Source of the DNA: Owenia fusiformis
Taxonomy: Eukaryota > Annelida > Polychaeta > Sabellida > Oweniidae
Direction: 5' to 3'
Assembly (NCBI GenBank): GCA_903813345.2
Contig: CAIIXF020000010.1
Span: 16,067,181 to 16,131,180, forward strand
Length of the DNA: 64,000 bases
Part shown: positions 56,001 to 61,058 of the stretch, one piece after another
Position numbering within the stretch: position 1 is the stretch's first letter
How the letters are laid out: every line of letters starts with the position of its first letter
Position numbers and translations under genes: made by a program
Notes under the pieces: generated by a model
The model's database searches: none
What the model was told of the DNA's origin: nothing
What the model saw: only the letters and a program-made list of their open reading frames with translations

Positions 56001-59000
56001 TTAATATTCAGGTCCCTTAAACACCCCAACCTGGTGCAGTTATTAGGAGTAGTTCTTGGAGAGAATGCCAGTGATACCATATATATTGTGACAGAATTCA
56101 TGAGTAAAGGAAGCTTAGTTGAATACCTACGTACCAGAGGAAGACAAGTCATAACAAAACAGAACCAGATCAACTTTGCGTGGTGAGCTTTAATAGATTT
56201 AAGTAGACGAATGAATCGTATGATGATGAAAAATCATTACCTTCAAAGAAAAAGAAATATGATGTATTAAGTGCTAAGTCACAATTTTGTTATTAGCTAC
56301 CCAATGATTTACTAAGGTAGTTAAACACTGGCAAATATGGCTCCATGTTATTGCATTGGAGCAATATAAGACTTGTGACATCACACTTTTGGAAAATAAT
56401 TTTTTTAGTTTACAACATAAAATACATAATTTGAATGGATGATATTAAGTAAAAGGGATGTTTTAAATACCATTTATTGTGATTTTTATTTCCTAAGAAT
56501 AAGCTATACAAAATCTATATGTTCAGTTCTCTGGGTGTAACACATGTCTTGTTGGGCTAGTGTCCTTTTGCTAAAACAGAAATAATCAAAAAGTAATCTT
56601 TTTTGGTTTCATTGAACTTCCTACATAGCTAATCCTTCATATCAGAGCTATTTTTCATTTGATTTCATTTAATTTTCTAGAAATACAGAAATATATTATG
56701 GGCTCTGATTACTGTCTCTCCAATTATTCTGCAAATTAAAAATCTCAAGTTGCCAGATCTCAAGTTTTATCATATAGTGGTTTGAATCCACGTACCACTG
56801 AATCAACGTGCCCTTTAATCAACATGCTCTTGAATTCGCGCTGAACACCCAGACGCGAATATAGCGGAAATTAGGGCGCCTTGAAAATTTGGGCTTTTAC
56901 AGCATCAAAGTTAAACATTAACAACCTTGTTGATATATCAGACAGCTCCATGCGTCAAGGTATTAAACTAAAATTTTGTTGTTCTAGCGATACCTGTGCA
57001 GGCATGGCGTACCTAGATGAGAAAAATTTAGTCCACCGAGATTTAGCAGCGAGAAATGTATTGATATCTGAGGACGATAGAGCTAAGGTTTGTTCAAAGT
57101 CTTTAACTTTAATTATCAAACTTTATTTTTAAATTTTCACATGTTTGTGATTTATGTTATTTATGTCAGCTTGATTAAACTCAATAAACTGTAATGATGT
57201 AGGTCTAATACATGTCCATTGTATTTGAAACTATCATTCCTGTATATTTCAGATCTCAGATTTTGGACTTGCAAGATATGAAGACACTAACCAAGAAGGG
57301 GGCAGGTTCCCTATAAAGTGGACTTCACCAGAAGCTCTGAGAGACAGTGTACGTTCAATTCATACTTCTCCTTTGATCAAAATAAGTTATTTAGGGAAAA
57401 TAGGCTCAAACCTCTCCCTCCCCTTTGTTATTATGTCATCACCAAAAGTGGTGACATTTTTTTTACGGTGTTTGCTGGTTGATGTTCAGCATTCAGCAGT
57501 TGTCATCTGTAACAAATGGCAGGTGGTGACATTTTGCAAGTTAATGCCTTGTATTTATCTAACATTATTTGAATTCAATGATTTGCTTTCACAAGTGACT
57601 TTGTGTAAATTTGGATTTTTTTTTCACTGTCAAGAAAAATCTTGATTCACAATGTTTCGATTTTTCCTACCTCACCTTCATAAATCTGCCAGATTTTACC
57701 AACCACTGTGTAAATAAACCCCAGCTGAGTCACTCTCAATATTGCTCCTCCTGGCAGTTGCCTGCAGAGTTTTGTGAGATGCCACAAAACCAATCGGCCA
57801 ATCAACAATGCGATATTTATTCAGTCCGTATACTAGACATTTTCAATATTTTGTAACTTGACGAAGCAGAGCATTCTAATTTGGTCCCTGGACCATGAAC
57901 TGCCACATATGAATGGGTCTCTAGACCCAGTGTAAAGGGACAATGGTCAAGAAATGCGTCTGTAACAAATTATCTCATTTTTGTAACCATTTGCAAAAGT
58001 TTAGCAGGTGATGACATTTTATTGTGTAAATGTCTTAGCACTGATCATAATGATATCCCACATCTCTAGTTCTCATATAATTCTCTTTAATATTAGTCAA
58101 ATGAAAAATCAATACAATGACATTGACAGTATTGTATATTCAAGGGTTTCACTAGAATTTCTCACGGCAGGCTAAATAAATGAAAACAACATGCAAAATT
58201 AATGGGAGCCGTAAAGTTAACATGGAAAAGTCCCTAAAAACAACAGGCGATTTTGTGAAAACAAATGTTTAAAATTGCCTGTTGCCTGCTGCTAATGAAA
58301 CTCCTGAGTTATGTGGACATATAAGTTTACTATCTTATATCTGTGCTTACATGCAAAAATCATAATAGATTCCTTCTTTTTTCCAATTACAGAGGAAACC
58401 TTATTACTAACATTCCATGTCAAAGTTCTCATTATCCAATATTGAATGTTTTGAGTTCTTTTTTATTATGGTTTCCTTTATTTTTATTACATTTATAGTC
58501 GAGCACATTGACCAGCCATAAAAAGAGGCATTATTAACCTGAAGAAAATTCATTTATACAATAGAAACAAATTGTTTGAACTTTTGATATATTAATATTT
58601 TTTTATGAGGTAAACTCCTAATAGATTTTACCTGAGTTAACCTGATATTTAAATATATCTTGCGCATACTTAGATGGTTTTTACTTCTTTTTATTTATTT
58701 ATTAAAATCACTTTAACATATCTATATAACATTAATAAAGACATCCCAGTTGTTTTATGTCATTGTTGACTGTATACTTTCAGAGATTCACCAGACTTCC
58801 TTGTTGTTTTATGTTGATTGTATACTTTCAGAGATTCACCAGACATCCCTGTTGTTGTTCTATGTTGACTGTATACTTTCAGAGATTCACCAGACATCCC
58901 TGTTGTTGTTTTATGTTGAGTGTATACTTTCAGAGATTCACCAGACATCCCTGTTGTTGTTTTATGTTGACTGTATACTTTCAGAGATTCACCAGACATC

Positions 59001-61058: not shown

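Follow-up and report, generated by a model that had tools for sequence, protein, structure and literature searches.

How does the splice acceptor of a conserved kinase exon come to stand at the end of a long row of near-identical copies of itself, and which copy is used? The question arises in a 64,000-nucleotide stretch of the genome of the annelid Owenia fusiformis (contig CAIIXF020000010.1, positions 16,067,181 to 16,131,180; here called the window), which has a G+C content of 33.6%. Three matches above the cut-off to PF16915 (Eryth_link_C), an erythrocruorin linker domain of annelids, agree with this origin of the assembly. A preliminary description of this DNA had reported 21 tandem units followed by the authentic junction of a CSK exon as the 22nd and last copy. 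TRF found a single array there (58739 to 59856, period 51, 22.0 copies, 95% matches), and segmentation at TTTCAG also gave 22 sites, the first at 58783 and the last at 59845, so both analyses bore out the count. The start of the array had been given as 58757 and lies instead at about 58740. We place the array at 58740 to 59855 on the forward strand, with 21 decoys upstream of the authentic acceptor, whose TTTCAG occupies 59840 to 59845.

The 21 segments between successive TTTCAG sites measure 51 nt (18 segments) or 48 nt (3 segments). Each unit is made of about 37 to 40 intron nucleotides and 11 exon nucleotides, the 51-nt form having 40 intron nucleotides through one extra TTG. All 21 upstream TTTCAG sites are followed by AGATTCACCAG, and the last one (59845|59846) is followed by AAATTCACCAG and then by TAAGTCTGATATG. 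This anatomy, with the authentic junction last, confirmed the earlier proposal that the repeated element is the acceptor itself and that it was amplified on its upstream side. Two details assigned to every unit hold for a part of them. The 14 intron bases CTGTATACTTTCAG are found exactly at the true site and in 13 of the 21 decoys (14 occurrences in the window) and not in the remaining decoys, and the branch-like motif TTGAC is present in 16 of 22 copies, with TTGAG in five and TTGAT in one. Among the decoys alone, TTGAC is kept in 15 of 21 and the AG in all 21.

The flanks and the internal differences of the array bear on how it grew. The sequence is AAAG|ACATCC at the left flank, CACCAG|ACATCC where two units meet, and CACCAG|TAAGT at the right flank. 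Where exon 10 has AAA, the codon of a lysine common to the solved CSK chains, every one of the 21 upstream copies has AGA. Two blocks of seven units, at 59084 to 59440 and 59441 to 59797 (forward strand), form a higher-order repeat and match without any difference over 357 bp, which suggests a recent exchange of blocks. Judged by eye and not from a tree, the edge copies (the first ones and the authentic one) bear changes that are absent from the inner, homogenized copies. The array has one location in the 498-Mb assembly, where we found no second haplotype of it. Exon 10 also contains a strong-looking, cryptic-donor-like GTAAGT on the forward strand, from 59855, ten bases after the exon start (stretch 59856 to 59861, TAAGTC/GTAAGT); at this place the units have CACCAGACATCC, without GTAAGT (both by eye).

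We use "exon 10" as a label for the CSK exon at 59846 to 59932, not as an established exon count. The 30 residues translated from 59846 had CSK chains as their best PDB matches (E value of 6e-14). On the forward strand, exon 9 (57253 to 57348, ISDFGL...SPEALRDS, donor GTACGT, phase 0), exon 10 (followed by GTAAGT), and the last exon (60879 to 61058, stop codon TAA) join in phase 0 to give one open kinase C-lobe to the stop, which aligns block by block with human CSK. A tblastn search with human CSK as the query placed the SH3, SH2, and kinase blocks in their expected order between 48991 and 61040. Because the reading phase fits the neighboring exons on both sides, exon 10 is predicted to start at 59846. 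These results agree with the preliminary assignment of the exon to CSK and of its first base, and by homology and phase exon 10 is a real CSK exon with the terminal copy of the array as its predicted authentic junction. We looked for a processed copy of CSK, from which the mRNA junction could be read, and found none, exon 10 being a single match in the genome.

The preliminary description knew of no named class of such arrays, and here it was wrong. Minisatellites across intron-exon boundaries have been named "mirages" in amphioxus (PMC3087553, PMC3902484), where those described include Adh3, troponin C, and the globins BflGb6 and BflGb9, with similar repeats in PGBD5, and there are human counterparts. 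The exon-10 array has the same makeup, a tandem unit that contains a splice junction, with the authentic junction of a conserved exon, as indicated by homology and phase, in the terminal position. It is a genuine structure that belongs to this known class and not to a new one. Like the exon-10 unit, the BflGb6 repeat consists of the 3' end of an intron and the 5' part of an exon, but it has six and three units of 150 to 160 bp in two haplotypes, compared with 22 units of 48 to 51 bp here; the Adh3 mirage units measure 10 to 72 bp. The amphioxus authors considered that mirages may be general in cephalochordates (PMC3087553). From the Adh3 data and RT-PCR of the globins they concluded that the copy adjacent to the exon is the one mostly used (PMC3087553), and the Adh and troponin C mirages are reported to produce no aberrant mRNAs (PMC3902484). 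Splicing was tested in amphioxus. In the Owenia genome, many junctions are concerned.

The human counterparts differ from the exon-10 array in other ways. The CBS gene has a 31-bp variable-number tandem repeat, c.1444_1467+7, with 16 to 21 copies (PMC2630376). By its notation the CBS unit spans a splice site with 24 exon and 7 intron bases, and its copy number is similar to that of the exon-10 array, but it involves a donor site and is polymorphic in people. A second CBS variant, 844ins68, duplicates an intron-exon boundary. It has one extra copy, compared with 21 in the exon-10 array. This 68-bp insertion is described as creating an alternative splice site, with mostly wild-type mRNA being made (PMC1334203). 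A broad survey of human segmental duplicates reported internal tandem repeats (minisatellites) at exon-intron boundaries that can yield alternative splicing patterns (PMC2812944). As reported, these repeats were taken from recent primate duplicates alone and were supported by RNA, unlike the CSK array, and their splicing effects call for caution about the view that decoys are silent. Among annelids, the earthworm metallothionein locus wMT-2 is described as having exon copies, one of them reversed (PMC12783039); unlike CSK, it has no tandem junction array in that account, and other wMT loci bear minisatellites in the first intron. In the literature searched, whose partial coverage makes this weak evidence of absence, we found no annelid for which such arrays had been reported.

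The same gene contains a second acceptor array, at exon 5. It lies at 52235 to 52586 on the forward strand (TRF, 8.4 copies of 42 bp, each of two 21-bp halves) and ends within exon 5 (52575 to 52746, forward strand; the exon end, GGAG|GTATTA, was placed by eye). Its units bear the acceptor CATTGTAG|CACTATGATCTG or variants of it, and the true acceptor is CATTGTAG|CACTATGATCTGCGAGGACC, with a translation that fits human HYTSDADGLCT. The AG is gone from four of the seven full upstream copies, in four different ways. The exon-5 and exon-10 arrays, both in one gene, are unrelated.

We surveyed other junctions in 130 loci (261,667 bases) around exons matching PF07714, PF00225, and PF00063. The sample used 115 of 158 tyrosine-kinase, 75 of 144 kinesin, and 44 of 92 myosin matches, picked by listing order and shortness. 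A tandem-exon cluster on C9 was excluded from the myosin sample, and a 159-bp kinesin array on C2, which was known from the match listing before its locus was sampled, entered with two copies. TRF arrays made up 4.9% of the sequence at the kinase loci and 9.2% at the kinesin and myosin loci. Junctions were positioned with a simple ad hoc splice score, and we dropped from the junction test 27 of the 234 matches (those longer than 420 nt) as well as edges with a weak splice score or less than 150 nt of flank.

Besides the two in CSK, 14 junctions in other genes had arrays or duplications, identified by sequence reading except where stated. Acceptor arrays were present at L045 (52 bp, 11 copies), L075 (42 bp, 3.5 copies), L091 (87 bp, 3 copies; seen by TRF and by eye and missed by the near-copy test described below), L095 (29 bp, 7 copies), L101 (110 bp, 2.4 copies), L110 (C2:23266200-23270000; 159 bp, 18 copies, exon part included), and L124 (61 bp, 4.5 copies), and L065 and L082 had acceptor duplications of two copies. 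Donor repeats were present at L031 (26 bp, 19.5 copies), L096 (91 bp, 2.6 copies), L098 (57 bp, 4.3 copies), L118 (34 bp, 4 copies; the script had mistaken a decoy for the junction), and L126 (two copies 90 nt apart). Several further loci had TRF arrays near an exon with the junction outside the array. What is new here is this frequency: CSK alone has two arrays, and a survey of modest size added 14 junctions in other genes.

To count such cases uniformly, we took the 24 bases around each junction and looked for a copy with at most 5 mismatches within 200 nt. Of 344 junctions of the sampled kinase, kinesin, and myosin exons, 15 were positive (10 among 171 acceptors and 5 among 173 donors). An earlier, stricter version of the test found 8 positives among 150 acceptors and 5 among 173 donors. 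The 15 positives reduce to 13 distinct cases that are clear by eye, since L110 was counted twice and L104 was false (the script had picked an intronic AG, the true acceptor lying just beyond the array). At the same loci, 255 of 4,003 intron points and 76 of 4,270 exon points had a near copy; the intron points lay 60 to 200 nt outside the matches and may include unmatched exon bases. A single-base-shuffled control had no near copy at any of 2,170 points, so the junction copies exceed what chance would give. Bootstrapping over 108 loci gave 4.4% (2.3 to 6.7) for junctions, 6.4% (3.4 to 9.6) for introns, and 1.8% (0.6 to 3.2) for exons, with a junction-to-intron ratio of 0.68 (0.40 to 1.19). With L110 removed, the counts were 13 of 340 junctions, 219 of 3,934 intron points, and 54 of 4,236 exon points, and the ratio was 0.70 (0.37 to 1.27). 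The positives comprised 9 of 130 kinesin, 3 of 73 myosin, and 3 of 141 tyrosine-kinase junctions. Because the kinesin set supplies most of the cases, the rate of junction copies is uncertain and may differ by family.

These results show that junctions are neither favored nor clearly avoided relative to introns. It is likely that this genome is rich in minisatellites and that the repeats cross splice junctions about as readily as they occur in introns. The lack of enrichment at junctions is what a general minisatellite process would give. A splicing-related targeting of junctions is not supported, both because of the ratio, with or without L110, and because the exonic part of the repeats differs widely between arrays (by eye).

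We considered whether the exon-10 decoys are used. Joining any of the 21 to exon 9 yields a product that is open and in frame with exon 9 as well as exon 10. The insert would add 16 to 354 residues to the kinase domain, at a site that we take to lie after the APE motif and before helix F. The exon-10 frame stays open for 369 codons across the array, as the frame does in a coding minisatellite, and the first in-frame stop upstream of exon 10 is at 58736, just before the array. Choice among the 22 in-frame acceptors could then produce a ladder of CSK isoforms with 0 to 21 copies of a 16- to 17-residue unit in the kinase domain, and the inserts would add kinase-dead or regulated forms of CSK. The near identity of the decoys to the true site and the unit lengths, all 48 or 51 nt, are consistent with such use, and the 21 open, in-frame decoys could be a hint of it. 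This hint is weakened by a shuffling control. It shuffled the intron bases of units whose length is a multiple of three, and 10,642 of 20,000 such units were open too, so an open frame across the array is not improbable. Use of the two other AGs in each unit gave no open product in any of the 21 decoys. The AGAG of the decoys, a case of tandem acceptors 2 nt apart, gave no open product (0 of 21); the array itself, with its AG spacing of 48 or 51 nt, does not fit NAGNAG or other close tandem acceptors. The differences between units that we read in the translation (F/S, C/S, T/S, and V/E) alter residues, which gives no sign of coding constraint.

The other arrays also argue against a ladder of isoforms. 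The exon-5 array has 11 decoys with an AG, counting half units, and none of them leads to a product that is open and in frame. We scored the frame of 14 arrays, a set that leaves out L110 and L126. All scored decoys were in frame and open in three of them (CSK exon 10, L075, and L098), a proportion close to the one third times 0.53 expected, and 11 of the 14 had no scored decoy that gave an open in-frame product. Selection for in-frame units as a general rule was rejected, since just these three arrays fit. Taken together, we regard production of a CSK isoform ladder as unlikely.

Selection against decoy sites as a general rule was also rejected. In L031, 11 of 19 decoys lack the GT, compared with none of 10 decoys lacking the site in L045, none of 21 in CSK exon 10, and none of those scored in 10 further arrays. 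In CSK exon 5 the AG or GT columns rank among those that changed most, and in L031 no columns changed more. Site loss is confined to these two of the arrays scored, as judged post hoc.

A second alternative is that the array is an early stage of intron gain, in which the exon part of a unit may become a new exon or a new intron may arise. Precedents exist for both outcomes. A new-exon model was proposed for the amphioxus globins (PMC3087553), and in the potato RdRp gene an intron is reported to have been gained through a tandem duplication across an intron-exon boundary (PMC4974935). As described there, the potato case is unlike the CSK array in being a single duplication, with the new intron arising through a cryptic donor. 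Some of the surveyed repeats do have an AG followed by GT (TTTTAG|GTTTGT in L045 and TTTAG|GTGAGC in L082). The exon-10 unit, however, lacks the GTAAGT of the exon, and we saw no good donor in it by eye, which makes this alternative very improbable for CSK. Mis-assembly of the array or of its copy number, which the exact duplicate of the 357-bp block could reflect and which apparently affected one amphioxus mirage in a genome draft (PMC3087553), is less probable still, given the ordered point changes among the units, the repeats with quite different units at 15 other junctions, and an assembly reported to be made from PacBio reads with an N50 of 25.75 to 30.75 kb, far longer than the array (PMC9977687).

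We therefore prefer the reading of the exon-10 array as a mirage-type minisatellite that is probably neutral and whose exon-proximal acceptor is mainly used, and we hold this with good, though not full, confidence. A tandem duplication would have copied the last 37 or so intron nucleotides and the first 11 nucleotides of exon 10, with an AG shared at the join; the flank and join sequences are what a duplication with a two-base shared AG would leave. One copy may then have mutated from AAA to AGA and multiplied. The presence of AGA in all 21 upstream copies and of AAA in the exon suggests that a single changed copy gave rise to the array, which unequal exchange or slippage of blocks would later have enlarged. 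The array may well be a neutral by-product DNA, as the sampled introns are rich in short-range repeats, and repeats that reach a junction would be tolerated because the spliceosome mainly takes the copy next to the exon body. Occasional use of an upstream acceptor would add an in-frame insert of 16 to 354 residues that is expected to inactivate the kinase.

The survey bears on the silence of the decoys. The surveyed genes are conserved and presumably functional, which implies that the exon-adjacent copy is mostly used, and the 11 of 14 arrays that lack an open in-frame decoy indicate that conserved genes presumably ignore decoys for the most part. What counts against the neutral reading is that no sequence feature accounts for a preference for the last acceptor over 21 nearly identical ones. 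Our preferred cause is exon definition, since the exon body and its donor follow only the last copy; exon definition would separate the last copy from the preceding one only slightly. More broadly, a few percent of the junctions in conserved genes may be multiplied in tandem by near-neutral duplication under a strict position rule that favors the copy adjoining the exon body, with isoform ladders in the few in-frame cases. We give this general proposal a little less than an even chance. In this proposal, acceptors and donors alike are multiplied, about as often as intron sequence or not clearly less often, and most arrays keep their decoys intact.

Splice-site choice has mostly been studied with designed constructs. 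Real junctions present in 2 to 22 near-identical copies offer a natural experiment on this choice. RNA-seq could show which copy wins (the first, the last, or any), how much distance and exon definition weigh, and how strong the selection on decoys is. Junction arrays also bear on the movement or origin of introns, and frequent mirages in another phylum would point to a wider feature of minisatellite-rich genomes.

Several further repeats were seen at the surveyed loci and elsewhere in the window. A search for second haplotypes of L045 and L110 found none; apart from the loci themselves, it matched local repeats, a dispersed repeat, and, weakly, one place on C6. In L110, each of about 18 copies of 159 bp combines an acceptor with some 120 nt that code for kinesin, and the copies that we read reach an in-frame stop (by eye). 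The dispersed repeat, of about 240 bp, occupies query positions 549 to 786 of L110 and has at least 40 copies among the matches listed, with 69 to 89% identity genome-wide. The kinase exon of L045 has a second array downstream of it, with a spacing near 102 bp and seven matches (L045 and C2:3910610-3911337). On the reverse strand at C9:37986009-37994334, near one myosin gene, the match listing gave twelve matches to one myosin-head segment (about 18 to 84), 0.3 to 2 kb apart; this series resembles a large tandem set of alternative exons that are possibly mutually exclusive. In the window itself, the TRF results for 27455 to 31537 and 32161 to 36320 are similar in order and spacing, as would be expected if a segment of about 4 kb, including a 79-bp array (29103 to 29501 and 33793 to 34191), had been duplicated. 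Two arrays with 183-bp units, at 11 to 1055 and 3873 to 4560, are apparently in opposite orientations, as judged from the TRF consensus units.
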